Of a DNA stretch of 64,000 bases, positions 32,867 to 48,601 are shown piece after piece. A model generated the notes under the pieces. The model was not told the origin of the DNA. It did no database searches and saw nothing but the letters and a program-made list of their open reading frames with translations. Source of the stretch: Arenibacter sp. P308M17 (GTDB lineage: Bacteria > Bacteroidota > Bacteroidia > Flavobacteriales > Flavobacteriaceae); the NCBI RefSeq assembly GCF_003426735.1, contig NZ_QVON01000009.1, forward strand, positions 124,001 to 188,000. The letters run 5' to 3'. Positions within the stretch are counted from its first letter, which is position 1, and the number at the start of each line of letters is the position of its first letter. Made by a program: the position numbers and the translations under genes.

Positions 32867-33242
32867 CGTGTTTTTAAAATTTCTATAAATTTATATAAAT
32901 CATCCCTAAATGGAAGGCTTCATTCCATGATTTTACTCGATAATCGAGATTTAATTGCTCCGACGCTTGCCCGCCAGTGCCGTTCGGACGGGCCCGCCCG
33001 TGCCGTTCAGGCGGGCGTCGAAATCAAACTTGAATTTCCTTTCAATGACTCGTGGGCCTGCCTTTGTCGGCAGACAGGCTTGCCCCGAGGTAGTTTACTA
33101 GTAAAAGACTATTTTTTTGAGAAACAGTTAAAACCGTTGCCGTCAAAATTAGGTATTCCTATTCCTGGGGTCAAACCGGTCACTACACCAAAATGATAGT
33201 TGTTGTTTTTGCAATTTATTGTGCTTTAGTGTATTAAAAGAT
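32867..33242. other. 376-base spacer with GC-rich repeats
   Basis: The gap between the symporter gene and acsA (both leftward) holds GC-rich palindromic repeats (32957-33085) in otherwise AT-rich sequence. It presumably carries the acsA promoter close to 32867-32950. No gene is seen. Confidence 0.6.
32957..33085. repeat. GC-rich palindromic repeat cluster
   Basis: Two related units, GCCCGCCAGTGCCGTTCGGA and CCGCCCGTGCCGTTCAGGCG, lie back to back at about 32968-33017 and are followed by a third hairpin, GCCTGCC...GGCAGACAGGC (about 33056-33080). The composition contrasts sharply with the AT-rich surroundings. The shared GCCGTTC(A/G)G core also resembles the element in the msrA leader. Confidence 0.7.
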
Positions 33243-34940
33243 TTAGTGGTCCACTGCCTCGGCTGCACCACTTGGAATCCTAATGTTCTCCACTATTTCC
33301 TGAACATTTTCCGGGGGGGCTGGTGTAAATCTATTGATCACCAATGCCACAATAAAGTTGATGATCATGGCCACGGTACCAAAGCCTTCCGGGGAAATGC
33401 CAAACCACCATTCCGACTTATCGGGAATTTCGCCCAACCAGCCCAACTTGAATTTGGCCATATAGAACAGCATTAGGCTGATTCCTACTACCATACCGCC
33501 AATGGCGCCCTCCTTGTTCATTTTTTTGTAAAAAATGCCCAGAACAATGGCAGGGAAGAATGAGGCTGCCGCCAGTCCAAAGGCAAGGGCCACCACTGCC
33601 GCCACAAATCCCGGAGGGTGTATCCCAAAATATCCGGCAATTATCACTGCCACGGTAGCTGCGCCCCTTGCAGCCCAAAGCTCCCCTTTTTCAGAGATAT
33701 TGGGTTTAAAAACTTTCTTGATCAGGTCATGGGAAACAGAGGAAGAGATGACCAACAACAATCCAGCCGCGGTACTGAGGGCAGCGGCCAAGCCACCTGC
33801 CGCCACCAAGGCAATTACCCAGGCCGGAAGATCGGCAATTTCTGGATTGGCCAGCACCATAATATCATTATCTACCGTTAATTCGTTCTTATCCTTATCG
33901 GCTACATATTGAATAATGCCATCCTTGTTCTTGTCTTCGAATCCCAATAAACCGGTTTCCTCCCAATTCTTAAACCAAAGGGGCATTAAGCTGTATTCTT
34001 TATTACTGACGGTATTTATTAAATTCATTTTGGCAAAAACGGATACCGCCGGGGCGGTAGTGTACAGAATGGCAATGAGCAACAATGCCAGTCCGGCCGA
34101 TTTCCGGGCGTCTTTGACCCTTTTTACGGTAAAGAACCTAACAATAACATGGGGCAATCCTGCCGTCCCTACCATAAGGGCCAAAGTTATGGCAAAGACA
34201 TCGATGACGGATTTGGAACCATCCGTGTATTCGGCAAAGCCCAGCTCTGTAGAGAGCCCGTTTAACCGATCCATAAGAAAGGTACCCGAACCATCGTTAA
34301 GTGTGGATCCCATACCCAGTTGTGGTATAGGGTTGCCCGTCATTTGAAAGGAAATAAAAATGGCAGGGACCATAAAAGCGAATATCAGCACACAGTATTG
34401 TGCCACCTGTGTATAGGTAATTCCTTTCATGCCTCCCAATACGGCATAAAAGAGCACGATCACCATTCCTATAATTACCCCGGTATTAATGTCTACCTGC
34501 AAAAATCGGGAGAATACCACTCCTACACCTCGCATTTGTCCGGCAACATAGGTAAAGGATACGATCAATGCGCAGAATACGGCCACCATACGAGCGGTGT
34601 TGGAATAATAGCGGTCCCCAATAAAATCGGGTACCGTAAACTTTCCAAATTTTCTCAGATAGGGGGCAAGTAGCAAGGCCAACAGTACGTAGCCTCCGGT
34701 CCATCCCATTAGGTATACGGAGCCGTCATAGCCAGCAAAGGCAATAATACCGGCCATGGAGATAAAGGAGGCCGCGGACATCCAGTCGGCCGCAGTGGCC
34801 ATTCCATTTGCCAGGGGCGACACCCCTCCACCGGCCACATAAAACTCTTTTGTTGATCCTGCCCTGGACCAAATGGCGATTCCTATATACAGGGCAAAGG
34901 TGATTCCTACTAGAAGGTACGTCCAGACTTGAACACTCAT
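33243..34940 (-). CDS. Sodium:solute symporter, acetate permease type
   Basis: A 565-residue inner-membrane SSS-family transporter with about 13 helices. It begins WTYLLVGITFALYIGIAIWS and has the typical family segments FYVAGGGVSPLANGMATAADWMSAASF (about 33-59) and the later ALSTAAGLLLVISSSVSHDL (about 375-395). The combination with a DUF4212 small subunit gene upstream and acsA downstream supports a short-chain carboxylate such as acetate as substrate, like ActP. The exact substrate is inferred from context. The DUF4212 gene lies about 100 bases upstream on the same strand. Confidence 0.9.
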   Translation of the reverse strand: MSVQVWTYLLVGITFALYIGIAIWSRAGSTKEFYVAGGGVSPLANGMATAADWMSAASFISMAGIIAFAGYDGSVYLMGWTGGYVLLALLLAPYLRKFGKFTVPDFIGDRYYSNTARMVAVFCALIVSFTYVAGQMRGVGVVFSRFLQVDINTGVIIGMVIVLFYAVLGGMKGITYTQVAQYCVLIFAFMVPAIFISFQMTGNPIPQLGMGSTLNDGSGTFLMDRLNGLSTELGFAEYTDGSKSVIDVFAITLALMVGTAGLPHVIVRFFTVKRVKDARKSAGLALLLIAILYTTAPAVSVFAKMNLINTVSNKEYSLMPLWFKNWEETGLLGFEDKNKDGIIQYVADKDKNELTVDNDIMVLANPEIADLPAWVIALVAAGGLAAALSTAAGLLLVISSSVSHDLIKKVFKPNISEKGELWAARGAATVAVIIAGYFGIHPPGFVAAVVALAFGLAAASFFPAIVLGIFYKKMNKEGAIGGMVVGISLMLFYMAKFKLGWLGEIPDKSEWWFGISPEGFGTVAMIINFIVALVINRFTPAPPENVQEIVENIRIPSGAAEAVDH

Positions 34941-35378: not shown

Positions 35379-36455
35379 TTAGGCCGGTAAATAAATTACC
35401 CCCCCGAAAGAATCCTTTTTGGCCCCTGTAACGGAGCTGAGGCAATTAATTTTCTCTTCATCCCTTAAGACGCCCATAAGCGCAAAAACAAGGGCCTCTT
35501 TAAATTCGATCAAGGTCTTGGAGGGCAGGACAACCTTAATTTCCGCTCCAAGTTTTTCCTGTAAACAATCCGTTAAAAAAGAGTTCAGGGCCCCGCCGCC
35601 GGTAACAAATAAGCTCTTTTTTGTTTTATTCCTTTGGCCTTTTACCTGAAGGGAGATCTGATCGCAAATATGATGAACGGCGGTATGCAGTAAATTTTCA
35701 ATTCGGTCCCCGGTACCTTCAACAATGGGGACTACTTTGTCTATAAACCATTCGAAACCAATAGATTTTGGAAAGGGCAATTTGTAGAATTCCAGGTCGT
35801 TGAGTTGGTCCAACATGCCCTGGTTTATCTTTCCGGTCCTTGCCAGATCACCTCCTTTGTCATAATCGAGGTCTATTTTTTTTGTAATATGGTTTAGGAC
35901 CATATTTGCCAAGCCTATATCATACGCCAATCTTCTGCCATTTTGTTCAAAGGAAATATTGCTGATCCCGCCCAGATTTAGGCAAAAATCGTAACTGTCA
36001 AAAAAGAGTTGATCGCCAATAGGTACCAAAGGTGCTCCCTGTCCGCCCAAGGCCACATCGTTGGTCCGGAAATCGCAGATTACCTTTGTGGCACTCGCGT
36101 TGGCCAAATGTTGGCCGGAACCTATTTGAAAGGTGAGTCCATTTTGGGGCTGGTGATGGGTGGTATGGCCGTGGCTGGCAATAAAATCCACTTCCAATGC
36201 ATGCGCTTTAATAAAATTATTGGCCTGCAGTCCCAGCCAGCTACCATAGGAATTGTGGAATTGTAGCAATTGGTCTGCCGGCAGGTAAATGGAGTTTTTA
36301 AGCTTTGTCTGCATTTCATCGCTATAGGGAATGCTCTGCGTTTGTTTAATCTCAAAATCCCAACCCGTGGGCGTTTCCCATATATGGCAGTAGGCCAGGT
36401 CCAATCCGTCCAATGAGGTGCCGGACATTAGCCCAATGATTTTATATATTTTCAT
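35379..36455 (-). CDS. anmK: Anhydro-N-acetylmuramic acid kinase
   Basis: A 358-residue cytosolic kinase that cleaves the 1,6-anhydro ring of anhydroMurNAc while phosphorylating it, giving MurNAc-6-P. I chose the ATG at 36455, preceded by a purine-rich AAAGAACTAAAG, because the signature IIGLMSGTSLDGLDLAY follows at once; a start at 36485 would add ten residues. Other blocks are ASHGHTTHHQP, FRTNDVALGGQGAPLVP and LNLGGISN, plus GGGALNSFL near the C terminus. Its product is the substrate of MurQ, encoded at 47236. It is the last gene of the leftward peptidoglycan-recycling operon. Confidence 0.95.
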   Translation of the reverse strand: MKIYKIIGLMSGTSLDGLDLAYCHIWETPTGWDFEIKQTQSIPYSDEMQTKLKNSIYLPADQLLQFHNSYGSWLGLQANNFIKAHALEVDFIASHGHTTHHQPQNGLTFQIGSGQHLANASATKVICDFRTNDVALGGQGAPLVPIGDQLFFDSYDFCLNLGGISNISFEQNGRRLAYDIGLANMVLNHITKKIDLDYDKGGDLARTGKINQGMLDQLNDLEFYKLPFPKSIGFEWFIDKVVPIVEGTGDRIENLLHTAVHHICDQISLQVKGQRNKTKKSLFVTGGGALNSFLTDCLQEKLGAEIKVVLPSKTLIEFKEALVFALMGVLRDEEKINCLSSVTGAKKDSFGGVIYLPA

Positions 36456-36500
36456 CTTTAGTTCTTTAATGTTTTTATGGTTCAAAGTAATGGACCCGAT

Positions 36501-37163
36501 CTATTCGGACAATATAAAGATCACCGACAAAGGTTTATTTCCATCGTTGGTCACTTCCTGTAATTGGTGCAATTGGAGTCCCGCTTTTTTGAATACGGAT
36601 ATCCAGGATTCAAAAGTACGGGCATACCAAGCATGGCCATCCGTAAAATTGCCGGGAAGTCCTTTCCAGGAATCACCTATCCATTGGCTTTTATACTCCA
36701 TGTTATTTTGCATTAGGAAAAAGGGGTGAAGGGTCTGTACAGCGATATAGCCATTTTCAGATAGCGCGTTTTTTACTTGCTTCAGGAGTTGGCCCAGGCC
36801 TTCTTTTTGATAAAGGCAGAAGTTGAAAACAGCAGCGTCATAGGGGGCTTCCGGGATGGGGTTTCCCAATATAATGTCTTCGTAGGACATTTGATAATAG
36901 GTGCCTCCTCCTTTTTTTTTCGCATTTTCCAATAATTGGGGAATGGCATCCAGGCCTACCGTGGATTTACCCATGGCACCTAGACTTCGTGTAAGCCAGC
37001 CCTCCCCACAGCCAATATCCAAAACTTTAATGGCAGGAGAATTGCCAATGAGCTGTAATATGGCCCTATTGGTGAATTTTCTGGATTCAATATCGGCATT
37101 GTCGATTACCTTGATCCATTCGAGGGCATTTATATTCCATGATTTGATAATGTTATTCTCCAT
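36501..37163 (-). CDS. Class I SAM-dependent methyltransferase
   Basis: A 220-residue cytosolic methyltransferase. Motif I is KVLDIGCGEGW (46-56), motif II includes TVGLDAIPQLLENA (about 68-81), and the DAAVFNFCLYQ segment (about 118-128) is motif IV. The C-terminal half resembles small-molecule methyltransferases of the Methyltransf_11/25 type. The acceptor is unknown. It sits between the nagZ-like gene (5-base gap) and anmK (45-base gap) inside a peptidoglycan-recycling operon. A role there is possible but not supported by family knowledge, so it may be a passenger. Confidence 0.88.
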   Translation of the reverse strand: MENNIIKSWNINALEWIKVIDNADIESRKFTNRAILQLIGNSPAIKVLDIGCGEGWLTRSLGAMGKSTVGLDAIPQLLENAKKKGGGTYYQMSYEDIILGNPIPEAPYDAAVFNFCLYQKEGLGQLLKQVKNALSENGYIAVQTLHPFFLMQNNMEYKSQWIGDSWKGLPGNFTDGHAWYARTFESWISVFKKAGLQLHQLQEVTNDGNKPLSVIFILSE

Positions 37164-37168
37164 TGTTT

Positions 37169-38734
37169 TTATCGCTCTTTTGGATTAATGGTAACGGGCA
37201 ATGTTCCTTTGGCTTTGTTTTTACCTGTGAAATGTGCCAGGGCATTCTCTTGAAATTCTATGAAATTTTGATACCCCAATACCACTGCTTTGGCGGTCTT
37301 ATACTCAATGAGGTTTAGTACATATGGGTTTCCAAATACATATAGGATTACCTTCTTTGTTTTTAACAAGTGCTGCAGCTGCAGAAGCTCCTCGGTCTTA
37401 AGGTCAAAATTGTTCTGCGGTTTGACTTTTGGTGGATAAAGGACAATTAAAACATTGTGCTCATTTTTAGGTCGCTCCATGGCGATTTTGGAGGCCGCTT
37501 TCACAAAGGTGTTATTGGTAGATTCCCCTAGGGAGAGGCAAGTAAAGCCTTCATTTATAAAGTCGGTAATAATACTATCGCTCCCCGTCAATAAAGTAAG
37601 GCTTTCCTTGGCCAACCGTTGGTTCAATATAGTGGTTTCCTCTCGGTCTGTAGGAGGTAGGGAAAGGGATGCAAAGGCTTTCTCCTTTAATTTCCATACC
37701 CTTTTAAAGCTTTCTTCTATTTCACCGGGCGCTGCATTATGTATTATTTTTTGAATGCCTTCCTCTGTGTTCTCTGCAAAGCAAAGGATATCATTGCCCG
37801 CATCAAACGCACGCCATTCCAGTTCCCCTTTTTCGGAAAACATTTTGCTTACGCTATGCATGTTCAAGGCATCGGATATGACTATACCAGTAAAATTTAA
37901 TTCCTTACGTAAGAGGCCTTGAATGATGGATTTGGAGATGGTGGCCGGAGTACCTTTGCCTTTATCCAGGGTGGGGATGGATAAATGACCTACCATAACG
38001 CTATCCACTCCACTATTTATGGATTCCCTAAAGGGATAAAGTTCGTTTTCCATCAAAGCTTCTTTGGATTTATTAATGACTGGAAGGCCAAGATGGGAAT
38101 CCGTAGCCGTATCACCGTGTCCGGGAAAATGTTTGATACAACTTAAAACACCAACGCTTTGGGTACCCTTTATAAATGCCAGTGCTTTTTGGGCTACATT
38201 CAATTTGTCCTCCCCAAATGAGCGGTAACCGATTACGGGATTGTTGGGGTTGTTGTTAATGTCCACTACTGGGGCCAAATTCCAATGAATACCAGCCTGT
38301 CTGCAATCAATGCCTATTTGTTGACCTACTTTGAAAATTAAGTCCTCCCTGTTGTGGACTGCCCCCAGGGTGATGGCATAGGGATACTGCGGCGTATTTT
38401 CAACGCGCATTGCCAAGCCCCATTCGGCATCGATACTTATGAGCAACGGATATTTTGCGGCATTTTGGTATCTTTCAATTAGGCTCTTTAGTGTGGTCAG
38501 GCTTTGTTGGTTATAAATAATTTTCTTTTTCCCTTCAAAATTGGTAGCGGCACTGGCCCTGCTATGAAAGAAACAAAGGCCACCAATGTGGTATTTTCCA
38601 ATGAGCGCTTCCAATCTCCGGATTTCTTCTTCGGTATCATTGATAAAAGCGGCCGGCATAAACAATTGGCCCACTTTTTCTTTTAGGACAAGCTGAATAG
38701 TAGCCGTAGTATAGGGCGCAATTTTAAACATCAT
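37169..38734 (-). CDS. nagZ: GH3 beta-N-acetylglucosaminidase, NagZ-like
   Basis: A cytosolic GH3 enzyme of about 521 residues expected to remove GlcNAc from GlcNAc-anhydroMurNAc (peptides). The start is ATG at 38734 (or the adjacent one at 38731), overlapping the permease stop by about 11 bases; the longer frame to 38773 lies inside the permease gene. NagZ features are the KHFPGHGDT loop (about 201-209, catalytic His) and the nucleophile Asp in VISDALNMHSV (about Asp288). There is no signal peptide, unlike secreted GH3s. A C-terminal domain of about 170 residues is present, as in many Bacteroidota homologues. Context with an AmpG-like permease and AnmK strongly supports the role. Confidence 0.9.
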   Translation of the reverse strand: MMFKIAPYTTATIQLVLKEKVGQLFMPAAFINDTEEEIRRLEALIGKYHIGGLCFFHSRASAATNFEGKKKIIYNQQSLTTLKSLIERYQNAAKYPLLISIDAEWGLAMRVENTPQYPYAITLGAVHNREDLIFKVGQQIGIDCRQAGIHWNLAPVVDINNNPNNPVIGYRSFGEDKLNVAQKALAFIKGTQSVGVLSCIKHFPGHGDTATDSHLGLPVINKSKEALMENELYPFRESINSGVDSVMVGHLSIPTLDKGKGTPATISKSIIQGLLRKELNFTGIVISDALNMHSVSKMFSEKGELEWRAFDAGNDILCFAENTEEGIQKIIHNAAPGEIEESFKRVWKLKEKAFASLSLPPTDREETTILNQRLAKESLTLLTGSDSIITDFINEGFTCLSLGESTNNTFVKAASKIAMERPKNEHNVLIVLYPPKVKPQNNFDLKTEELLQLQHLLKTKKVILYVFGNPYVLNLIEYKTAKAVVLGYQNFIEFQENALAHFTGKNKAKGTLPVTINPKER

Positions 38735-39998
38735 GGGTATTGGTCTTTTTACCGTAATCGGCAGGATATTCAATATATTTTAAGAGGAACAGTGCGGGTA
38801 GGGCCGCAATGACCACCCAAACGAAAAAGCCGCCATATCCGAGCCATTCCTGGATATAACCACTGGCCATTCCCGGCAGCATCATTCCCAGGGCCATAAA
38901 TCCGGTGGCAATGGCATAGTGGGAAGTTTTTGAAATTCCTTCCGCAATATAGATCAGGAAGATCAGAAAGGCAGCAAATCCAAAGCCGTACCCAAACTGT
39001 TCCAACACCACTGTTACTACAACGGCCACAATGCTGGTGGTTTTTGTCAAGGCCAAAAAGGCGTACATGGCATTGGGCAGATTTAGGGACAAGACCATGG
39101 GCAACATCCATTTTTTTAATCCATCCTTGGAAATAAGGATGCCACCGAGGATCCCTCCCAAGGATAACATTATTACTCCCACAGTTCCGTAAATGGTCCC
39201 TACCGCCTCGGTAGAATATTCCAGTCCGCCCGCTGAGGTTTTGTCCAGCAAAAAAGGGGCGGCCATTTTTACCAATTGGGATTCCCCAAGACGATAACTT
39301 AAAATAAAGGCCAGGGCGATTCCGATATTCGGCTTCTTAAAAAAGGAAATGAACACCTCCAAAAATCCTTCAGGTTTTACTTGGACAATGGCTTGGGAGG
39401 ATTCAAATTTTGGAGCGACAAAAAAGTTGGCCACCGTCAATGTCAACATTAAAATGGCAGCGGCGATCATGGTAACGGACCATGCTTTGGTGTTGTCCCC
39501 ATAATAATTTTCCAGAAATCCGGCGAGGATAACTATGAGTCCTTGACCGGTAATCATTGCAAGGCGGTAGAAGGTACTCCGCATGCCTACAAAGAAGGCC
39601 TGTTTTTTTTCTGTGAGGCCCAACATATAATATCCGTCCGATGCAATATCGTTGGTTGCCGAGGCAAAAGCAGCCATCCAAAAACACGCCAAAGTGGTGG
39701 TAAAAAAAATGGAAGTTGGAAGGGTCAAGCCCACTCCAAGAATGGCGAGGGAAATGATCAGCTGCATGCTCAGGAACCATTTTCGTTTGGTGCCATTGAG
39801 ATCTACAAACGGACTCCAGAGAGGTTTTAAAACCCATGGAAGATATAACCAACTGGTGTATAAACCAATATCTGAGTTATTGATACCCAGTTTTTTATAC
39901 ATTATTACCGAAACTGTAACTACAAGTACGTACGGAATGCCTTGTGTAAAGTATAAAACAGGAACCCATGCCCATGCCCACTTGTCTTTTTGAATCAT
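38724..39998 (-). CDS. AmpG-like muropeptide permease (MFS)
   Basis: A 424-residue inner-membrane MFS transporter with about 12 helices. It begins WAWAWVPVLYFTQGIPYVLV, and LGLTEKKQAFFVGMRSTFYRLAMI (about 127-150) and the segment PLWSPFVDLNGTKRKW are typical of the AmpG branch, which imports GlcNAc-anhydroMurNAc and its peptides. The assignment of substrate rests on this resemblance and on the operon: a glycosidase gene upstream and nagZ- and anmK-like genes downstream, with the nagZ-like start overlapping its stop. A general sugar MFS transporter remains possible. Confidence 0.85.
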   Translation of the reverse strand: MIQKDKWAWAWVPVLYFTQGIPYVLVVTVSVIMYKKLGINNSDIGLYTSWLYLPWVLKPLWSPFVDLNGTKRKWFLSMQLIISLAILGVGLTLPTSIFFTTTLACFWMAAFASATNDIASDGYYMLGLTEKKQAFFVGMRSTFYRLAMITGQGLIVILAGFLENYYGDNTKAWSVTMIAAAILMLTLTVANFFVAPKFESSQAIVQVKPEGFLEVFISFFKKPNIGIALAFILSYRLGESQLVKMAAPFLLDKTSAGGLEYSTEAVGTIYGTVGVIMLSLGGILGGILISKDGLKKWMLPMVLSLNLPNAMYAFLALTKTTSIVAVVVTVVLEQFGYGFGFAAFLIFLIYIAEGISKTSHYAIATGFMALGMMLPGMASGYIQEWLGYGGFFVWVVIAALPALFLLKYIEYPADYGKKTNTHDV

Positions 39999-40069
39999 TT
40001 TGCCTGCACTTTATTTGCTAAAATTGATTTTATATTGTTTATGATGAAGATATAAAATCTTCCGTTGCT

Positions 40070-41584
40070 TTAATTTATACGGATAATTTTAGGCCTGCTT
40101 TCCTGTCCAAAATTATTTATAAATGATAAGGCCAAAATTTTCTTTCCTTTGAATTTCGATGGGTCAAAACTAAAATTTCCCGACTCGGATAACGGTATTT
40201 TTGACACTAGATTATCGGTGTTTTCCAGGTTTAATTTGGATTCTTTTTTAGCTACATATACCAGGGCATAACTTAAATTTTGTCTTTCCTGGGGCGGTAT
40301 GCTGAAGTATAGAATTCCCTCTTTTTCTTCAAACCGGGTTTCGACTATCCTATTTTGGAATACGTTTATTGGTAATGGTGGGCTAGGGGGCAGGGCCATC
40401 TTGTGGTAGTATTTTTTCTTCAATATTCTAAGCACATCCTCCTTGTTGGACATAAGGGATTTGGCACTAAAAAATACATTGCCGATTACATTTTTATTTT
40501 CTCTGGCGAATTTTAGTTGGTTGGGAAGTTCTTTTTTCCTGTCCCAGGCCCTGTCACTGTTGTTTCTTATTTTATATGGCCCGTTGCCAATATACAGATT
40601 GGTATTGTGGCTGTTTTTAGACCACCAGTCCACTATCTTTTTATGGGATGCTGCGGGCAGGTCCATGCTCCAATAGACTTGGGGCACCAAATAGTCTATC
40701 CAGCCATTTTTCATCCATAACAAAGGATCGGCGTATAGATCCTCATAAGTGGTCTGTCCGGCTTTGGTATCCGATCCCCTTGGATCGGTACTGTTGTTTT
40801 TCCATACCCCGAACGGACTTATGCCGAACTGTACCCAGGGTTTTTTACTTTTTATGGTATTATGGACCTTTTGCACCAAACTATCAATATTGCTCCTACG
40901 CCAATCTTCCAAAGATTGTTGCGGTAGGGCGTATTTGATATAGGTTTCCCTGTCTTCAAAGGTTTCACCGGTTATCTTGTAGGGATAGAAGTAATCGTCA
41001 AAATGTACGGCATCTATATCGTAATTGGTTACTACTTCGGCTATGATATCGGTTAGGTGCTGTTGCACTTCCGGTAATCCGGGATTGTAATAATATTTTT
41101 TTCCATATTTCAACATCCAGTCGGGATGTTGGTAGTAATCATGGTCTTCGCTCAATATTTCCAGTTTTTCATCAAACGTCGCCCGGTAGGGGTTAAGCCA
41201 AGCATGAAACTCCATCCCCCTGGCATGTGCTTCCTGTACCATCCATTCCATAGGGTCGTAATAAGGTTGTGGGGCTATCCCTTCGTTGCCGGTCAAAAAT
41301 CTGGACCATGGTGCGTATTGGGAAGGATAAAAGGCATCCCCGGCGGCCCTGATCTGGACAATTACGGCATTAAAATTCAGATTTTCATAAAAATCAAGGA
41401 TTTTCAGGTAGTCCTGTTTCTGTTTTTCAATATCATCCAACCCATTTTTCGGCCAGTCGATATTGACTACGGTGGCTATCCAGACTCCCCTCAATTCATG
41501 CTTGGGTGTTGGTATGGAAGATTGGAATACCGAGCAGGAGGAAGTAAGGACCAATGAAAGTAATATGAAAATTCTTTTGAACAT
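40070..41584 (-). CDS. GHL10 family glycoside hydrolase lipoprotein (DigH-like)
   Basis: A 504-residue lipoprotein (lipobox LTSSC, Cys17) with the GHL10 (DUF187) barrel from about 28 to 345: HELRGVWIATVVNIDWP, NFNAVIVQIRAAGDAFYPS, GMEFHAWLNPYRA, DAVHFDDYFYPY and FGISPFGVWKN. A C-terminal fibronectin-like region follows. E. coli DigH (YddW), of this family, cleaves glycan strands stripped of stem peptides. Its place ahead of an AmpG-like permease, NagZ and AnmK genes supports a peptidoglycan-cleaving role in the periplasm or at the outer membrane. The Asp pair in HFDDYFYP is a plausible active site. Confidence 0.9.
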   Translation of the reverse strand: MFKRIFILLSLVLTSSCSVFQSSIPTPKHELRGVWIATVVNIDWPKNGLDDIEKQKQDYLKILDFYENLNFNAVIVQIRAAGDAFYPSQYAPWSRFLTGNEGIAPQPYYDPMEWMVQEAHARGMEFHAWLNPYRATFDEKLEILSEDHDYYQHPDWMLKYGKKYYYNPGLPEVQQHLTDIIAEVVTNYDIDAVHFDDYFYPYKITGETFEDRETYIKYALPQQSLEDWRRSNIDSLVQKVHNTIKSKKPWVQFGISPFGVWKNNSTDPRGSDTKAGQTTYEDLYADPLLWMKNGWIDYLVPQVYWSMDLPAASHKKIVDWWSKNSHNTNLYIGNGPYKIRNNSDRAWDRKKELPNQLKFARENKNVIGNVFFSAKSLMSNKEDVLRILKKKYYHKMALPPSPPLPINVFQNRIVETRFEEKEGILYFSIPPQERQNLSYALVYVAKKESKLNLENTDNLVSKIPLSESGNFSFDPSKFKGKKILALSFINNFGQESRPKIIRIN

Positions 41585-41604
41585 ATGGGATTGAGCGTTG
41601 AAAT

Positions 41605-41641
41605 AAAAGGCCTAGCATTTTAACATAAATGTAGGCCTTTT
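41605..41641 (-). terminator. Hairpin between susD and the GHL10 gene
   Basis: AAAAGGCCTA (41605-41614) pairs with TAGGCCTTTT (41632-41641), with T-rich sequence following on the minus strand. It lies just beyond the susD stop and before the GHL10 start. It may attenuate transcription so that the abundant SusC/SusD pair is made in excess over the enzymes. It could act in both directions. Confidence 0.7.
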
Positions 41642-41663
41642 GTAAACTAAAACAACATTTCCT

Positions 41664-43007
41664 TTAAATTGTTGGATCGGCCGGAGTATTGCTATTGTTG
41701 TCCCTCTCGGTGTTTGGATAGGGATAAAAGTTTCTATTCCTTTCATCCGTAAACACTTTGGCACTTGTGCTGGGCTCAGGTCGCTCAAATCTTCTACTGT
41801 CCTCCAAGCTGGTTCCGGTTAGGAACAGCTCCAATCTACGATTAAGGTATACTTCGTCCAAGAGGGCATCAACGGACATATCTCCGGTATATGAAGCAAT
41901 ATTGGCATTAAGGCCAAAAACGTCGTCATTATCCGTTCTAACATTGTCTATTGCGGTTACTGCCGCAGTCATATCAACTGAAGTTTTTCTAAGATTGGCC
42001 TCGGCAATAATTAGATTCATTTCGTCCGGTAAATAAACTGGAATGGATTCGGTTCCATCTTCCATATCAAAGAAACCCGCAAGATCTTCAATGGGCAATT
42101 GATTTAAGTTCATTTCATCCAATGATACCAGGTAGAAATCAATTCGCCCATCCTCTGGGTCTATTGAAAAGGAATTGGGCAAGCCGAAGTTGTCCCTAGG
42201 TTTAAAATTGGGAACGCCGTTTTGAAAGACCCTGCTCCAGACCGGATTTAGGTTCTGTGAATCATAGGTGAATACGGAGGCAACGGATTGGTCTACAGAA
42301 CCGGCGGCCGTTATGGCGTCCTCGTAATTACCTGCAAATAAATTGTACCTGGCCGACATGGCCTTTAAGGTATTATCCAAATCTATATTCCCTCTTAATA
42401 TCTCGGAACTGAACTCTTCGGATATTGGGTTGGACGAAATTAGGTTTTGAGCCTCATTAATTAAGGCAACTGCAGTGTTGTATGCCTCTGTTCTGGATAC
42501 GAATGCAGCATCCCCATCCTGGCCGATAGCTACAATTACTTGTTCGTAGTTCTGGGCCAAACTACCTATGGCCATGGCCTTAAATAAATTGGCGTAGGCT
42601 ACCAATCCACTTTTGGTACCATCCTCGATACTAAGATCGGGTGCACTTTTTGCAATATCCTCCGAAATCGACATTACCCGAAGCATAGTAGACCAGAGTC
42701 CGACTATATTGGAAGTGGAATTGGGGATGTCCCCACCGTCCTCAAGATCGATCATGTTCTGAAAGGTAGTGGTAATACCTGCCTCTCTAGTGGTTACTGC
42801 AGGAGTTTCAACGATCCATCTAAGACCGGTAGTGGAATACAATTGTTGCATGCCTATGGTTGCTGCCAATATGCCTTCCCTGGAAGAAAAGACCTGAGCG
42901 TCCGTAGCGGCATTGGGATTGTCAAAATCGGTTTCGCAAGATGATATTACCAAGACGGTCATCAATAGTGCAATAGCCTTTATGTTCATATTCAAATATT
43001 TTTTCAT
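41664..43007 (-). CDS. SusD/RagB family outer-membrane lipoprotein
   Basis: A surface glycan-binding lipoprotein of about 447 residues that caps the SusC-type transporter. I chose the ATG at 43007 (MKKYLNMNIK...), giving a lipobox VISSC with Cys24; the frame to 43037 overlaps the susC end. Tetratricopeptide-like helices and the SusD C-terminal features (FYPYPNTERDNN) are visible. It lacks close similarity to starch SusD and is shorter than many (often 500-600), which fits a smaller ligand. In this locus I infer a peptidoglycan fragment as ligand. Confidence 0.9.
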   Translation of the reverse strand: MKKYLNMNIKAIALLMTVLVISSCETDFDNPNAATDAQVFSSREGILAATIGMQQLYSTTGLRWIVETPAVTTREAGITTTFQNMIDLEDGGDIPNSTSNIVGLWSTMLRVMSISEDIAKSAPDLSIEDGTKSGLVAYANLFKAMAIGSLAQNYEQVIVAIGQDGDAAFVSRTEAYNTAVALINEAQNLISSNPISEEFSSEILRGNIDLDNTLKAMSARYNLFAGNYEDAITAAGSVDQSVASVFTYDSQNLNPVWSRVFQNGVPNFKPRDNFGLPNSFSIDPEDGRIDFYLVSLDEMNLNQLPIEDLAGFFDMEDGTESIPVYLPDEMNLIIAEANLRKTSVDMTAAVTAIDNVRTDNDDVFGLNANIASYTGDMSVDALLDEVYLNRRLELFLTGTSLEDSRRFERPEPSTSAKVFTDERNRNFYPYPNTERDNNSNTPADPTI

Positions 43008-43023
43008 TGTTGTTGTTTTTAAG

Positions 43024-45999
43024 TTAGAAACTAACATTTACTCCAAATTGATACGTTTTAGGGATGGGAACTGTAGCGAAATCAAACCCTCTTACCCCAT
43101 TGCTTTGCCCTGCGGCACTTACTTCTGGATCCCACCCGGAATAATTGTCCCATGAAACCAGGTTTCTACCTACCAAACTCAATGCTACATTGTCTATAAT
43201 GTCCCATTTTGGTTTAAAGTTATAGCTCAGGCTTACCTCCCTTAACTTAACAAAGGATCCATCTTCCACAAACTCTTCAAAGATATTGGCCTGTGCCCCA
43301 CCGTAGCCCTTGGGAAGGTTTCCCAACAATTCTTGACCCACATTATATCCACCACCAAACAATACATTGTCCATCAATCTGCGGTTCCAGTTGAATACTT
43401 CATAGCCCTGAACAGCATCAAACTGCACTCTTAAAGAAAAATCCTTATAAGTAATTTCATTGATCAGGGAACCAAACCAATCTGGATTGGGGTCGCCCAA
43501 TACTTTGGACGATTCGCCATCCTCAGTAGTACCTCTAAAAGGATATCCATTGGCGTCCAGGGCTATGGTCCCATCTTCGTTTCTAGCGTAAAACTCCCTA
43601 TAGAAAACACCTAAAGACTCCCCTTCTATTACATAGTTGGTGGAGAAACTGCCATCAAGGGTTAGTCGCCCTCCTCCTGCTACGTTGGTAACCTCATTCT
43701 TGTTTTTGGAGAAAGAAGCGGTCACGTCCCATGAAAAGTTTTCATTTTTAATGGGTGCGGCCATAAGAAGTACTTCTATCCCTTTATTTTCCAAATTTCC
43801 TACGTTTTCGAACCTCGAGCTAAAACCACTTGATGGTGCCAATACCCTTGGAAGCAATAGATCGGTCACTTTTTGATGGTAATACGAAAACTCTAGGCCT
43901 AAGCGGTTGTTGAGAAAACCTGCATCAAAACCCAATTCAATTTCATCCTGTCTTTCGGGTTTTAGGTTTTCATTTCCTTGAGCGGTCGAGGGGATAAGAC
44001 TTACCGCCCCACCAATGGCTGACGGCGTATATACTGAAAATCTGTCAAAGGCACCCAATGCGGTAAGGTTACCGGCCTGTCCCCATGAAGTCCTTAATTT
44101 AAAGGAATTAAAAGTGTCTGAAAAGGTATCTTTCCAAAAATCCTCATCGGATAGAACGTAAGAGGCGCTGGCCTTAAAATAAAGTTGATTGCGCTCATCC
44201 TTACCGAAAGTTGAAGCCCCGTCCATTCTTACGGCCCCGTTTATGTAAAGTTTGTCCATGAAGGAAAACGATTGTTGCAGGAAAGCTCCCCAGTATGATA
44301 TCTGTGATCTAGTCTCTCCTTGTTCCAATAAACTACCTCCAGTTGCCGTTTGCACCACAGGAGGAAGTCCGGTTGCACTAATGCCTACCCTGTCCCTTTC
44401 TTCGTATTGCCAAGATCCGCCGGCGGTGGTGGTGGAGTTCACGCTATCCGATATATCCGTTCTGTAAGTTATATTAAGGTCACTGTTGTATTGAAAACTG
44501 TTTAAATCGGATCTTCTAGCAAATCCATCGGGTAGGGTGGAAGTATTATTGATTGGGATAAAGGCAGTGGCGGATTGGTTGTAATAATCCATTCCCAGGG
44601 TATATTTTGCGGAAAGATGCTCATTGAATTTACCATCCAAGGCAATGCTGGTGATAAAACGATTGGTTTTTTGTCCAAAATCGAAACGGTCCACCGCTTC
44701 CAAAGGGTTGGTTCTCGCCACCAAGGGAGAGGTTATAGGGTAAACTCCGGAAGCATCAGGAGTTGGATCTATGGAATTATCGCTGAACAAGAACCCTGTA
44801 ATGGAACCATAGGCAGAATTGATCCCTCCATTGGGAACGTCGTTGCTTATACTTCTAACGTAGTTGAAACCTCCGGTGATATCCAGCCAATCAAATGCCT
44901 TTTGGGTAATGTTGGCCTTAAAGCCATAACGTTTAAAGTCGGTATTCTTTACAATACCTTCATTGTCCAAGTGTGAGGCCGAAAGAAAATAGGAGGTCTT
45001 CCCATTTCCGCCATTTACCGAAAAGTAATTCTCCAGTCCGGAACCAGTATCGAAAATAACATCTTGTAAATCATATCGCTCTGCTGCAACTGTAGCCAAA
45101 TTATTTCTATCAGTGGCCACTTCCCATGCTAGGGGAACGGTATTGTAATCTATTTTTTTTCTAAGCTCGTTAAGCTTGGTATTTGTCATAAAAGTAAATT
45201 TTGGCTCCCCACTTTTACCTTTTTTGGTGAAAATTTGAACTACCCCGTTGCTTGCTCTCGAACCGTATATTGCCGCTGCCGCTGCACCCTTTATAATTTC
45301 TATTTTTTCAATATCGTTGGGGTTAAGATCGGCAAGCCTGTTCTGGGAATTTCCTCCCAAATCTATGAGTTCGTTACTGGAATTGCTGACTATGATGCCA
45401 TCCACAATATAAAGGGGATCGGAACTACCTGCAATGGTGCTTGGCCCCCTAAGTCTTATACTGATGCCTCCAGCCGGGTCTCCGGAATTTTGTTGTACCA
45501 GGGCACCGGAAACTTTTCCGGCAATGGCCTGATCTACCTGGGTGGCGCCATTATTGGTCAAATCTTCCGATTTTACTGAGGATATGGCGTTTCCCAAAGA
45601 TCTTTTATTGGCCCCTGTCCCTGTCCCGGTAACCACCACTTCGTCCAGACTTAAAAGGTCCTCCACTAGTACAATATCCTGAGTGATATTGTTGCCCGAG
45701 GCAGTGAAGGATATTTTTTGAGTGCTAAAACCAAGATAGCTAGCGGTTAGGGAATAATCCCCGTTCTCCAAATCAGCCTTAAAGCTGTAGTTTCCATCAA
45801 AATCCGAAACCGCCCCAAAAGAAGTATTTGCAATAAATACAGAGGCTCCGGCAATTGGTATCCCAGAACCGCTTTCGGTTACGTTTCCACTGATTGTAAT
45901 TGGGGATTGTTGCCCAAATACATTTGTACTCATTACCAAAAGTAGCCATAGGAATAAATGGCTTGGCAATTTTCCTCTAATTGTTTGAAATTTTTTCAT
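43024..45999 (-). CDS. SusC/RagA-type TonB-dependent outer-membrane transporter
   Basis: A 991-residue outer-membrane beta-barrel that imports oligomers with energy from TonB. In order: signal peptide (about 1-29, ending NVFGQ), a carboxypeptidase-regulatory-like beta domain (about 33-112, GNVTESGSGIPIAGASVFI), the TonB box and plug (LDEVVVTGTGTG at about 117-128, through IEIIKGAAAAAIYGSRASNGVVQIFTKKG), and the barrel ending in the typical aromatic C terminus QFGVNVSF. susD follows on the same strand. The divergent DeoR-type regulator gene and the peptidoglycan-recycling genes make this a candidate muropeptide or glycan importer. Confidence 0.93.
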   Translation of the reverse strand: MKKFQTIRGKLPSHLFLWLLLVMSTNVFGQQSPITISGNVTESGSGIPIAGASVFIANTSFGAVSDFDGNYSFKADLENGDYSLTASYLGFSTQKISFTASGNNITQDIVLVEDLLSLDEVVVTGTGTGANKRSLGNAISSVKSEDLTNNGATQVDQAIAGKVSGALVQQNSGDPAGGISIRLRGPSTIAGSSDPLYIVDGIIVSNSSNELIDLGGNSQNRLADLNPNDIEKIEIIKGAAAAAIYGSRASNGVVQIFTKKGKSGEPKFTFMTNTKLNELRKKIDYNTVPLAWEVATDRNNLATVAAERYDLQDVIFDTGSGLENYFSVNGGNGKTSYFLSASHLDNEGIVKNTDFKRYGFKANITQKAFDWLDITGGFNYVRSISNDVPNGGINSAYGSITGFLFSDNSIDPTPDASGVYPITSPLVARTNPLEAVDRFDFGQKTNRFITSIALDGKFNEHLSAKYTLGMDYYNQSATAFIPINNTSTLPDGFARRSDLNSFQYNSDLNITYRTDISDSVNSTTTAGGSWQYEERDRVGISATGLPPVVQTATGGSLLEQGETRSQISYWGAFLQQSFSFMDKLYINGAVRMDGASTFGKDERNQLYFKASASYVLSDEDFWKDTFSDTFNSFKLRTSWGQAGNLTALGAFDRFSVYTPSAIGGAVSLIPSTAQGNENLKPERQDEIELGFDAGFLNNRLGLEFSYYHQKVTDLLLPRVLAPSSGFSSRFENVGNLENKGIEVLLMAAPIKNENFSWDVTASFSKNKNEVTNVAGGGRLTLDGSFSTNYVIEGESLGVFYREFYARNEDGTIALDANGYPFRGTTEDGESSKVLGDPNPDWFGSLINEITYKDFSLRVQFDAVQGYEVFNWNRRLMDNVLFGGGYNVGQELLGNLPKGYGGAQANIFEEFVEDGSFVKLREVSLSYNFKPKWDIIDNVALSLVGRNLVSWDNYSGWDPEVSAAGQSNGVRGFDFATVPIPKTYQFGVNVSF

Positions 46000-46082
46000 C
46001 GGCTTTTAGAGTTAATTTTTAGTGAATTAAATTAGAAATAGAGTAATTGTTATTCTCAAAAATATGCAAAAAACCGCAACTC

Positions 46083-46107
46083 TTGCAATAATTTGCAATA
46101 TATTGCA
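46083..46107. promoter_or_regulatory. Candidate operator in the susC/deoR intergenic region
   Basis: A perfect 14-base palindrome, TGCAATATATTGCA (46094-46107), is preceded by a half-site TTGCAATA (46083-46090) in the 190-base divergent region. DeoR-type regulators bind such repeats, so this could be the operator through which the regulator controls both itself and the transporter operon. The assignment is an inference from position and symmetry. Confidence 0.55.
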
Positions 46108-46191
46108 TTAATTTTTGAAATTGTTAGCTTTATGAGGATTGTTTGCAGTATTTTGCTAATATTGAGAATATTCTGTTAATATGATAATTTT

Positions 46192-46941
46192 ATGTTAAAA
46201 GCCGAGAGACAACAAGTAATCCTAAACGAGGTTAGAATCCATAATAGGGTTTTATTCACGGATATTGCCGAACTATTGAGTGTTTCGGTAGATACCATTC
46301 GCCGTGATATTAAGGAGCTCAGTGCCGTAAAAAAATTAAAAAAGGTACATGGCGGGGCCATTTCATTAGGTTTTAACAATTACCATGTTGAAAATCAAGA
46401 GATCTATGCCCTTGAGAGTAAGTCGCGCATTGCCAAAAAGGCAATAACCCTGATCAAGAGTGGACAGGTCGTACTTTTAAGTGGGGGAACCACTAATATG
46501 GAAATTGCAAGGATGATTCCGCCCCATTTGAAAATTACCTGTTTTACACCCAGTTTACCGGTGGCCGTTCAATTAATGGCCAAATCGGATGTGGAAGTAA
46601 TATTGGTAGGTGGAAAGTTATCCAAGGATTCGCAAATTGCCATTGGGGGCTGCGCTATAAACATGTTGAACGATATTAAAGTGGATATCTGCTTTTTGGG
46701 TATCAATTCTATTGACAGATTAAACGGGGTGACCGATTTTGACTGGGATGTTGTTCAAATGAAAAAGGCTATGATTAATGCCTCCAAAAAAATCGTTGCC
46801 CCTTCAATTTCCGAGAAATTACATTCTACACAGCGGTTCAGGATATGTGACTTGGATACTATCGATGTTTTAATTACCGAATTGGATCCAGAGGATGATA
46901 AATTAAAGGATTTTAGGGAAACCAATATGATATTGTTATAA
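46192..46941 (+). CDS. DeoR/GlpR family transcriptional regulator
   Basis: A 249-residue regulator with an N-terminal DeoR helix-turn-helix (about 5-58: LFTDIAELLSVSVDTIRRDI followed by KKVHGGA) and a C-terminal DeoRC sugar-phosphate sensor domain. The sensor motifs are LLSGGTTNMEIA (about 94-105), VEVILVGGKLS and DICFLGINSID. These proteins respond to phosphorylated sugars; MurNAc-6-P, made by AnmK and used by MurQ, would be a logical effector. It is divergent from susC and precedes murQ on the same strand by about 295 bases. Confidence 0.92.
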   Translation: MLKAERQQVILNEVRIHNRVLFTDIAELLSVSVDTIRRDIKELSAVKKLKKVHGGAISLGFNNYHVENQEIYALESKSRIAKKAITLIKSGQVVLLSGGTTNMEIARMIPPHLKITCFTPSLPVAVQLMAKSDVEVILVGGKLSKDSQIAIGGCAINMLNDIKVDICFLGINSIDRLNGVTDFDWDVVQMKKAMINASKKIVAPSISEKLHSTQRFRICDLDTIDVLITELDPEDDKLKDFRETNMILL

Positions 46942-47235
46942 AATATGTAAATGTTGGTCCTTTGTAAATTTTTAAATGGTCTTAATTTTATTAATAATCG
47001 CAGTAAGTTTTGGATAAGGTTCAAAAGTAAAATTTCATAAGTTTGCCATTATATTCTGAGTATACTTTGACTTGTGAAACAGTGGTTAGTTTAAATAAAA
47101 AATTATTTCCAAATGAATAACAGGAGTAATGGCTTAATTTAATGAAATTACTGAGTTGATCATCCTATTCAAGTATTCTATGTTTAGTTTAAACCAATTA
47201 ATAATTCTATCTAAATCAAATACCGACCATAAAAT

Positions 47236-48051
47236 ATGTCCGACTACCTAAAGATTACCGAATTACCATCAAAATATACCGATTTGGAATTGATGGATAC
47301 CGCAACGATCCTTAAAAATATGAATAAGGAGGACCAATTGATTGCCGATGCGGTAGCCTTGGTCATACCTGAAGTGACCAAATTGGTGGATGCCCTGAAG
47401 GAAAGATTCGACAAGGGGGGCAGATTATTTTATATAGGTGCCGGCACCAGTGGCCGTTTGGGTGTGCTTGACGCTTCGGAAATTCCGCCCACTTTTGGGT
47501 TGTCGCACGATCATGTCATTGGATTGATAGCAGGTGGGGATGTGGCCATCAGAAAGGCCGTTGAGAATGCAGAGGACAATACCGTTCAGGCCTGGAAGGA
47601 TTTGGAAGCTTTTGATATAACTAAGAACGATACCGTGGTGGGAATTGCCGCATCGGGCACTACACCTTATGTTATTGGAGGGGTAAAGGCCGCCGCCGCA
47701 CATGGATTGTTGACCGCATGTATCACCAATAATCCGGGATCTCCCCTTACCCAAGTTGTGGAAATACCTATTGCTGTAAATGTAGGGCCGGAATTTCTTA
47801 CCGGAAGTACGCGGATGAAAAGCGGAACATCTCAAAAGCTGGTGCTCAACATGATTTCCACGGCCCTAATGATCAGGATCGGGAGGGTAAAAGGGAATAA
47901 AATGGTAAATATGCAGCTTACCAATGAAAAGTTGGTAGACCGCGGCACCCGGTATTTGGTAGAGGAGTTAAATATAGATTATACCGAGGCCGAAAAATTA
48001 TTAAAGAAATACGGTTCCGTAAAGAATGCCATAGACGCCAGAAGGGGATAG
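47236..48051 (+). CDS. murQ: N-acetylmuramic acid 6-phosphate etherase
   Basis: A 271-residue cytosolic lyase that removes D-lactate from MurNAc-6-P to give GlcNAc-6-P. SIS-fold signatures are YIGAGTSGRLGVLDASEIPPTF (acid/base Glu82) and the second conserved Glu in VENAEDN (about Glu113); GIAASGTTPYV and LTGSTRMKSGTSQK complete the sugar-phosphate site. It is slightly shorter than E. coli MurQ (298) but intact. It joins the AnmK product to amino-sugar metabolism. It is convergent with the cytochrome c gene, one base away. Confidence 0.96.
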   Translation: MSDYLKITELPSKYTDLELMDTATILKNMNKEDQLIADAVALVIPEVTKLVDALKERFDKGGRLFYIGAGTSGRLGVLDASEIPPTFGLSHDHVIGLIAGGDVAIRKAVENAEDNTVQAWKDLEAFDITKNDTVVGIAASGTTPYVIGGVKAAAAHGLLTACITNNPGSPLTQVVEIPIAVNVGPEFLTGSTRMKSGTSQKLVLNMISTALMIRIGRVKGNKMVNMQLTNEKLVDRGTRYLVEELNIDYTEAEKLLKKYGSVKNAIDARRG

Positions 48052-48052
48052 A

Positions 48053-48457
48053 TTATTTATGGACATTCATGGACACTTCCTCCTCGGTTACCATGCTGTC
48101 GCTTTTATTGCCCCATGAATTCAGGATATAGTTCATTACATCTGCAATTTCCCCATCTTCCAATCCCATTGGTGGCATAATGTTGTCATAGGTCAGCCCA
48201 TTGACCAATATAGGGCCTTGTTGGCCGTATTTTATACCCCTTATACTTTCTTCCCTTTTGTTCATTAAAAAATCAGATTTGGCCAATGGCGGGAATGTTT
48301 TTTCCACGCCTTCCCCATTGGCCATATGGCAATTTATACAGAAGTCGGAATAAATATCCCCACCTCTTTGGATACTTTCTTCCAATTCCTTGTCCTGGAA
48401 CAAAAAAAGGGCCAGTAAGGAAATGGACAAAATATAGGTTATAAGCAAGAGTTTCAT
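48053..48457 (-). CDS. Small periplasmic or membrane-anchored cytochrome c
   Basis: A 134-residue class I cytochrome c. One N-terminal helix (about 2-20) exports or anchors it. Haem attaches at CINCH (Cys40, Cys43, His44) and the axial Met is in NIMPPMG (Met94, or possibly Met97), before the usual C-terminal helix EIADVMNYILNSWGN. It lies downstream of the PQQ-type sugar dehydrogenase gene on the same strand (about 145 bases apart), so it may accept electrons from that enzyme. The leader shared with msrA lies directly upstream of its start. Confidence 0.92.
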   Translation of the reverse strand: MKLLLITYILSISLLALFLFQDKELEESIQRGGDIYSDFCINCHMANGEGVEKTFPPLAKSDFLMNKREESIRGIKYGQQGPILVNGLTYDNIMPPMGLEDGEIADVMNYILNSWGNKSDSMVTEEEVSMNVHK

Positions 48458-48566
48458 CTGTTACTTTTTATTGTTTTTAATCGGTCAGATGTAATGCCTT
48501 GATTATCATGTCGTCCCGATAATTATCGGGAGGTTTGATAAATCTCCATTGGGCATTTCATAGATT
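48450..48566. repeat. Leader repeat, cytochrome c copy
   Basis: This copy is homologous to 25899-26034, starting at the first codons (both genes begin ATGAAACT) and running outward through TTATTGTTTTTAATCGGTCAGA to ATTTCATAGAT. An 18-base palindrome (48514-48531) interrupts this copy but not the msrA one. Confidence 0.75.
48514..48531. repeat. Perfect 18-base palindrome in the cytochrome c leader
   Basis: TCCCGATAATTATCGGGA is an exact palindrome. It sits at a position where the homologous msrA leader has no equivalent, so it looks like an inserted element rather than part of the ancestral leader. Confidence 0.75.
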
Positions 48567-48601
48567 ATTCTTTAAGTTGCTGAGGTGTAAGGAAAAAGAT
48601 G

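Follow-up and report, generated by a model that had tools for sequence, protein, structure and literature searches.

The 64,000-nucleotide stretch of Arenibacter sp. P308M17 (Flavobacteriaceae) analysed here, hereafter the window (contig NZ_QVON01000009.1, positions 124,001 to 188,000, from a genome of 5.04 Mb), contains a nine-gene cluster that is probably a salvage locus for peptidoglycan sugars and has an outer-membrane importer of its own, the SusC–SusD pair (SusCD), for glycan fragments containing N-acetylmuramic acid (MurNAc). SusD, as a surface lipoprotein, and SusC, as a TonB-dependent channel, would take these fragments to the periplasm; a GHL10 lipoprotein would cut the glycan strands, probably by lytic transglycosylation that produces anhydroMurNAc ends, and AmpG would move the disaccharide of N-acetylglucosamine (GlcNAc) and anhydroMurNAc to the cytosol. 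NagZ would then split this disaccharide, AnmK would yield MurNAc-6-phosphate, and MurQ would produce GlcNAc-6-phosphate and D-lactate, with enzymes encoded elsewhere in the genome completing the path and a DeoR regulator acting on a tandem 10-bp repeat over susC. The initial annotation had described a 10.6-kb run of genes for SusC, SusD, GHL10, AmpG, a NagZ-type glycoside hydrolase of family 3 (GH3), a methyltransferase and AnmK, flanked by a divergent DeoR-type regulator and MurQ. All nine genes were found at the places it had given, DeoR and MurQ lying on the opposite strand to the run. Gene families, gene order, conservation and the repeat are read directly from the sequence, and the SusD fold from a structural model.

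The proposed ligand of SusCD is deduced from its neighbourhood only, and import of peptidoglycan fragments is supported because the pair occurs in several unlike contexts of MurNAc salvage, because a control set lacks these genes, and because a promoter repeat is shared. Relatives of this SusD were collected with a six-row SusD alignment and a profile search of genome contigs, the best 80 of 119 confirmed relatives being used. Neighbouring genes were called by tblastn (1e-6, 60% query coverage), with AmpG, AnmK, MurQ or NamZ within about 10 kb as markers; the SSF symporter and the HGSNAT-like protein mentioned below are outside the marker set behind these counts. A marker is held by 58 of the 80 loci (AmpG 36, AnmK 51, MurQ 44, NamZ 6), which also include GHL10 (38), the methyltransferase (49), DeoR (55) and NagB (27, among them 23 of the 36 AmpG loci), whereas no marker accompanies any of the 36 other SusD loci of the source genome. 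An even draw of 397 genomes of the family contained 34 with the SusD subfamily (E <=1e-60), in 26 of 237 genera; two from Arenibacter and genome G014, which was already covered and has NamZ, were left out, and 18 of the 31 loci taken carry a marker. The Fisher p values of 9e-15 (58/80 vs. 0/36) and 2e-8 (18/31 vs. 0/36) ignore kinship and are a guide only. These counts bear out the conservation of SusCD with the recycling genes, which the initial annotation had left for checking. The opposite view, that SusCD is not conserved with them, had been suggested by 16 AmpG loci of other genera without the pair and was rejected by the SusD-anchored searches, which place SusCD beside recycling genes in Flagellimonas, Allomuricauda, Formosa and others.

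The contexts are of different kinds. Arenibacter and the Flagellimonas–Allomuricauda group show MurQ/DeoR/(NagB)/SusCD/GHL10/AmpG/NagZ/methyltransferase/AnmK; Formosa and Flavivirga show SusCD–NamZ with MurQ and a GH3::beta-lactamase fusion, to which loci L164 and L179 add an SSF symporter; Maribacter litoralis has SusCD–methyltransferase–AnmK–symporter–MurQ; and in Pontibacter an AnmK relative of only 28–31% identity lies just upstream of SusC. The order in G014 is DeoR, SusC (47%), SusD (41–43%), NamZ (PF07075, 246 bits), GH3::beta-lactamase, DeoR and an HGSNAT-like protein that has no Pfam match of its own. The HGSNAT-like protein was considered as MurT and rejected, since MurT is described as a member of the sodium symporter superfamily (PMC5790795); the SSF protein is the MurT candidate. 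Across these contexts, SusCD appears to follow MurNAc genes in general more than AmpG. At locus L288, a SusCD only 33–39% like that of the window lies between NagB and GHL10-AmpG-NagZ-AnmK, in the same slot.

Several observations weigh against a dedicated importer of wall fragments. All four markers are missing from the DNA covered in 22 of the 80 loci; L123, L149, L169, L176 and L177 are on short contigs, but others are long, among them those of Maribacter (L127, L128), Gramella (L132), Latescibacterota (L159–L162) and Saprospiraceae (L175), and the long flanks of L127 and L132 show only DeoR-SusC-SusD-methyltransferase of the gene set. Likewise, 13 of the 31 even-sample loci lack markers, six ending at contig edges and seven (L261, L262, L263, L266, L267, L281 and L285) being full 19.9-kb stretches. 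The 80 loci include many close relatives, 10 of them from Arenibacter, and the control loci come from one genome, with a few of the 36 stretches overlapping. In a draw of 120 Flavobacteriaceae genomes, the SusD-bearing ones besides the source (G014, G057, G116 and G119) gave no AmpG match; NamZ accompanies SusD in two of them, AnmK and MurQ in another, and only NagB in G116, which has a stretch of 11.5 kb. Conversely, neither SusC nor SusD was found at any of 16 AmpG loci of other genera. Finally, the GHL10 protein and nine relatives are without acidic residues just after the lipid cysteine, unlike SusD, and because of this GHL10 may face the periplasm, which would leave the cluster without a clear surface enzyme.

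When AmpG was sought in the same 120 genomes, it was found in 18, the source included; 16 of the others show 72–85% identity and one 36%, the latter having none of the other cluster genes within its 20 kb. The 16 loci contain NagZ, AnmK, MurQ and NagB throughout, DeoR in 15, GHL10 in eight and the methyltransferase in three. All of them also have an open reading frame of 637–661 residues beyond GHL10/AmpG, next to DeoR in the 15 with DeoR found; the three that were scanned (L019, L020 and L031) are fusions of a glucosamine-6-phosphate deaminase domain with a PIG-L deacetylase domain, and a tblastn match to one of these three identifies such a NagB::PIG-L-like gene in 16/16. The AmpG core looks like an older recycling operon to which SusCD was added, because all 16 other-genus loci are without the pair and two Arenibacter genomes lack DeoR and SusCD at this place. 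The earlier proposal that SusCD imports peptidoglycan fragments for the AmpG–NagZ–AnmK–MurQ path thus gains comparative-genomic support, but the pair has to be regarded as an add-on to that path. The same evidence bears on the idea that the locus recaptures leaked turnover products of the cell's own wall and does not scavenge other bacteria. AmpG, NagZ, AnmK and MurQ make up the classical self-recycling set, and related loci that run without SusCD make the core resemble a self-recycling operon; however, a TonB-dependent SusCD pair is energy-costly and usually signals nutrient uptake, and the two Arenibacter genomes retain the core without it. Recapture is a possible but less likely purpose of the locus.

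Within Arenibacter, AnmK is present in 18/18 genomes, AmpG in 12/18 and SusD in 11/18, the source included, so that 7/18 are without the SusCD pair, and the full arrangement of the window occurs in ten (nine and the window itself). G124 and G136 keep the locus, but DeoR and SusCD were not found there; about 190–230 bp separate MurQ from GHL10, no match longer than 24 bp to the deoR-susCD stretch of the window was obtained in either, and G124 is also without the methyltransferase. In G130, SusCD and the methyltransferase stand beside another salvage set, consisting of a GHL10 that is 37% like that of the window, an SSF symporter, an NAGPA/metallophosphatase protein, an HGSNAT-like protein, GH3::beta-lactamase and AnmK. 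This set occurs without window-type SusCD, whole in G120, G123 and G127 and in part in the 20-kb stretches of G128 (L099), which also shows MurQ, and G131 (L098), which shows a different SusCD pair. The set of L094–L099 appears to provide another salvage route from the same position on the chromosome: AnmK and the symporter–acetyl-CoA synthetase pair beyond it stay put, and the genes for transport and cleavage vary. In these six Arenibacter loci, GH3::beta-lactamase and the HGSNAT-like protein lie beside anmK, and four (L094–L097) hold a 1286-residue protein of NAGPA/metallophosphatase/golvesin type, as judged from a Pfam scan of the L097 copies only. A simple replacement of nagB by susCD was rejected, since many Flagellimonas and Allomuricauda loci hold both; it is more likely that nagB disappeared from this slot in Arenibacter, with a homologue retained at another place in the genome.

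The sequence-level marks of a polysaccharide-utilisation locus (PUL) are present: a SusC-type TonB-dependent transporter, an adjoining lipoprotein of SusD fold, and adjacent GHL10, GH3 and DeoR genes that recur in relatives. SusD itself is weak by sequence, with PF07980 below cut-off (E 0.005) and no phmmer match in the Protein Data Bank. Nevertheless, its AlphaFold2 model (mean predicted local distance difference test score 82, predicted template modelling (TM) score 0.84) has SusD-like proteins as best Foldseek matches (3qnk, E 2.5e-10; TM about 0.6; root-mean-square deviation 9 for 3qnk and 5 to 9 in the top rows), which indicates that the modelled protein has the SusD fold. The residues after its lipid cysteine are ETDFD, and the CETDF that follows the signal is only a loose match to the Flavobacterium export consensus SDDFE given in PMC5080379. 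The source genome encodes 36 other proteins above the PF07980 cut-off, and this SusD, used as a query at E 1e-5, matches only itself there.

Each enzyme step is assigned by analogy with characterised relatives. The GH3 protein carries the motif KHFPGHGDTATDSH at residue 214, presumably the NagZ signature; its best solved relative is the GH3 beta-N-acetylglucosaminidase 6k5j (4.9e-59), and NF003740 is matched below cut-off (156.5 vs. 207). No signal peptide was seen by eye in this protein or nine relatives, and it is probably cytosolic. AmpG, NagZ, AnmK and MurQ occur together in the cluster, the NCBIfam models for the first two being matched below their cut-offs: TIGR00901, the best for the AmpG-like protein, gives 184 vs. 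350, and its best solved structures are AmpG proteins (8zgz, 4e-22, and 9c3f). MurQ falls just short of TIGR00274 (298 vs. 302) and is above the cut-off of PRK05441. GHL10 is the family to which E. coli DigH belongs, and the only solved relative found for the lipoprotein of the window is Cwp19 (5oq2, 9.8e-107). Cwp19 is described as a lytic transglycosylase that releases anhydro-muropeptides and leaves anhydroMurNAc ends (PMC6016235), and DigH as a denuded-glycan hydrolase (PMC12288456). Cwp19 as relative fits the anhydroMurNAc route and suits AnmK. The suggestion that the natural ligand is peptide-free, in keeping with GHL10 specificity, is weakened by it, since an enzyme that frees anhydro-muropeptides does not demand peptide-free strands; a peptide-free substrate is possible. 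The methyltransferase is present in 35/36 AmpG loci with SusCD vs. 3/16 without. It also lies directly downstream of SusD at Maribacter and Gramella loci where the DNA covered contains no recognised recycling genes.

Import of another amino-sugar glycan, such as chitin oligosaccharides, would make NagZ and NagB enzymes serving GlcNAc and the MurNAc genes mere old neighbours. NagB and GH3 are indeed general GlcNAc enzymes, and the alternative loci include a GH3::beta-lactamase of the build of Rhodothermus RmNag3, an active beta-N-acetylglucosaminidase with a predicted signal peptide that acts on chitooligosaccharides (PMC6987092). However, the neighbours that recur, AnmK, MurQ and NamZ, act on MurNAc compounds, and no chitinase was recognised among the ten window proteins scanned, which makes a chitin-type ligand improbable.

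The promoter between deoR and susC contains five GCA units at steps of 10, 9, 10 and 10 bp on the + strand. Thinning left 78 DeoR-divergent promoters, of which 73 face susC or nagB, and GCA pairs 10 bp apart number 99 vs. 5.2 expected in the 39 thinned DeoR–susC promoters and 106 vs. 5.7 expected in the 34 thinned DeoR–nagB promoters (dinucleotide shuffles). Before thinning, in a set from which near-copies had been partly removed, at least one pair occurs in 39/47 SusC-side and 42/42 NagB-side promoters vs. 5.9 and 6.5 in an order-1 simulation. Strict GCA triples at 46084–46107 give two matches in the window vs. 0.20 expected, and GCAWN6GCAWN6GCAW has five matches in the genome, two of which are the window site on both strands, compared with one for the triple read backwards; by eye, no such array is seen in the deoR–murQ gap. 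The susC and nagB promoters appear tied to one kind of regulator, and from the neighbourhood DeoR is predicted to bind the repeat as a putative operator. Alternatively, DeoR-SusC-SusD-methyltransferase might be an independent cassette that entered a recycling locus and serves an unrelated ligand, perhaps a methylated one. This agrees with the close tracking of SusCD by the methyltransferase and with Maribacter, Gramella and other loci that carry the cassette without recycling genes in the DNA covered, but is highly doubtful, given that the cassette, or SusCD alone, sits in MurNAc loci of several unlike kinds and that nagB promoters, including those of recycling loci without SusCD, share its promoter repeat.

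In a DeoR tree of 87 rows (14 near-duplicate loci and frames with stops or below 85% coverage left out; with a long-branch warning), the window DeoR and the susC-side regulators of Arenibacter group together (100/99); they belong to a 28-row clade (99/98) and lie outside a 24-row clade of nagB-side regulators (98/85). Both types occur together in loci such as L125, L126, L130 and L259, where nagB and susC are each preceded by a DeoR gene of their own. Most simply, a DeoR–SusCD cassette would have entered a DeoR–nagB recycling operon that later lost one DeoR and, in Arenibacter, nagB as well. This history was not one clean event, because the susC label changes 11 times in the tree and the clade holding the window DeoR also has 11 nagB-side rows. 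There is about an even chance that this SusCD is a recognisable importer class for bacterial cell-wall glycan, borne on a regulated cassette (DeoR, SusC, SusD and often the methyltransferase) that joins different MurNAc-salvage loci in Flavobacteriaceae, and perhaps beyond, and turns a self-recycling operon to scavenging, the loci with two DeoR and the Arenibacter losses of nagB or the cassette being stages. If peptidoglycan salvage through SusCD is true, it would suggest that marine flavobacteria feed on dead bacteria; the promoter repeat, and strains that naturally have or lack the cassette, are material for tests.

For the later steps, family scans of the cluster recognised no AmpD, Ldc, NagA or NagK. 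The absence of AmpD, LD-carboxypeptidase and NagA/NagK that had been reported earlier thus holds for the cluster, but elsewhere the genome has a NagA candidate, a frame that scores 221.2 bits, just short of the cut-off of 225.65. A NagB::PIG-L homologue of 60% identity lies at C21:227356-229245, and the single NamZ match of the genome is on another contig, 3.6 kb from a frame that by eye looks like a BadF-type kinase. The genome gave one Amidase_2 match, to a frame whose N terminus by eye is of lipoprotein type; no cytosolic AmpD of the Amidase_2 family was recognised there, other amidase families being outside the search.

The features are collected in Table 1. The leftward run from susC to anmK (45999 to 35379) spans 10,621 bp with intergenic gaps of -50 to +79 bp, a spacing fit for a single transcript. 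Comparison with relatives gives ATG 36455 as the probable start of anmK, whose leader holds a stop in 8 of 18 Arenibacter genomes, and ATG 38734 and ATG 43007 as those of nagZ and susD. Genes for an acetyl-CoA synthetase and a sodium:solute symporter (30959–34940) adjoin anmK and recur in relatives, and acetate from amino-sugar deacetylation might link them to the cluster. On the other side, cytochrome c and glucose/sorbosone dehydrogenase (PF07995) genes (48053–49723) adjoin murQ and recur near the cluster in many relatives. An open reading frame of 2813 residues with repeats (49858–58299) has a C-terminal region that by eye resembles a gliding/type IX secretion sorting domain.

Table 1. Genes and promoter element of the predicted salvage locus, in window coordinates.
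Feature	Position	Strand	Evidence
anmK, anhydro-MurNAc kinase	35379..36485	-	PF03702 3e-59, 201 bits; NF007144 above cut-off
Class I S-adenosylmethionine (SAM)-dependent methyltransferase	36501..37163	-	PF13489, PF08241
GH3 NagZ-type beta-N-acetylglucosaminidase	37169..38773	-	PF00933 2e-74, 251 bits
ampG-like inner-membrane muropeptide permease	38724..39998	-	TIGR00901 best NCBIfam; AmpG structures 8zgz, 9c3f
GHL10 lipoprotein, predicted to cleave peptidoglycan glycan strands (Cwp19/DigH type)	40070..41584	-	PF02638 2e-79, 268 bits; 5oq2
susD, outer-membrane ligand-binding lipoprotein	41664..43037	-	AlphaFold2 model and Foldseek; weak PF07980
susC, TonB-dependent outer-membrane transporter	43024..45999	-	TIGR04056 619 bits, above cut-off
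Tandem GCA repeat, proposed DeoR operator, susC/deoR divergent promoter	46066..46107	.	Sequence; pattern counts
DeoR-family regulator	46192..46941	+	PF00455, PF08220
murQ, MurNAc-6-phosphate etherase	47236..48051	+	PRK05441 above cut-off; 4s12 9e-74

Among known systems, the AmpG–NagZ–AnmK–MurQ path of E. coli leads from the anhydro-disaccharide to GlcNAc-6-phosphate with the same enzyme order as the window, and E. coli recycling also has AmpD and LdcA. To our knowledge, E. coli has neither SusCD nor such a gene cluster. Cwp19 and DigH share the GHL10/DUF187 catalytic domain family with the lipoprotein of the window (PMC6016235, PMC12288456), although Cwp19 is a surface protein of a Gram-positive bacterium and bears CWB2 repeats (PMC6016235). 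The ampG-murTKQ operon of Tannerella forsythia, from the same phylum, also clusters AmpG with MurQ and handles peptidoglycan fragments from outside, but it uses a free-MurNAc route (MurT, MurK), includes ybbC, is regulated by GppX and not by DeoR, and has no SusCD among the nine genes named (PMC5388701, PMC5790795, PMC7670621). None of MurT symporter, MurK kinase and NamZ (ybbC) is among the window cluster proteins scanned, in which the locus differs from the T. forsythia type. The portions of those papers available here cover inner-membrane and cytosolic steps and do not settle how wall fragments cross the outer membrane in Bacteroidota (PMC5388701, PMC5790795, PMC7670621); the present SusCD subfamily, which keeps company with MurNAc genes across many genera, is a named candidate for that passage.

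In the open-licence literature of PubMed Central, subscription papers being outside the search, one murein PUL with susCD was found, and the breadth of the subfamily, the control, the promoter repeat and the behaviour of the cassette were not. This PUL for murein metabolism, described in 2023 from the Urechidicola symbiont of Idas mussels, is likewise from Flavobacteriaceae and combines susCD with deoR, murQ, nagB, ampG and, as named there, glycoside hydrolases 3, 171 and 10 (PMC10199937). It differs in having two susCD pairs, about 27 kb, an amidase, a carboxypeptidase, an epimerase and a glycoside hydrolase of family 18, and its legend names no anmK (PMC10199937), whereas the window has one susCD pair, AnmK, the methyltransferase and no recognised peptide-handling genes. 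SusCD-bearing murein PULs are thus already in print as annotation, and the locus of the window is a variant of that kind.

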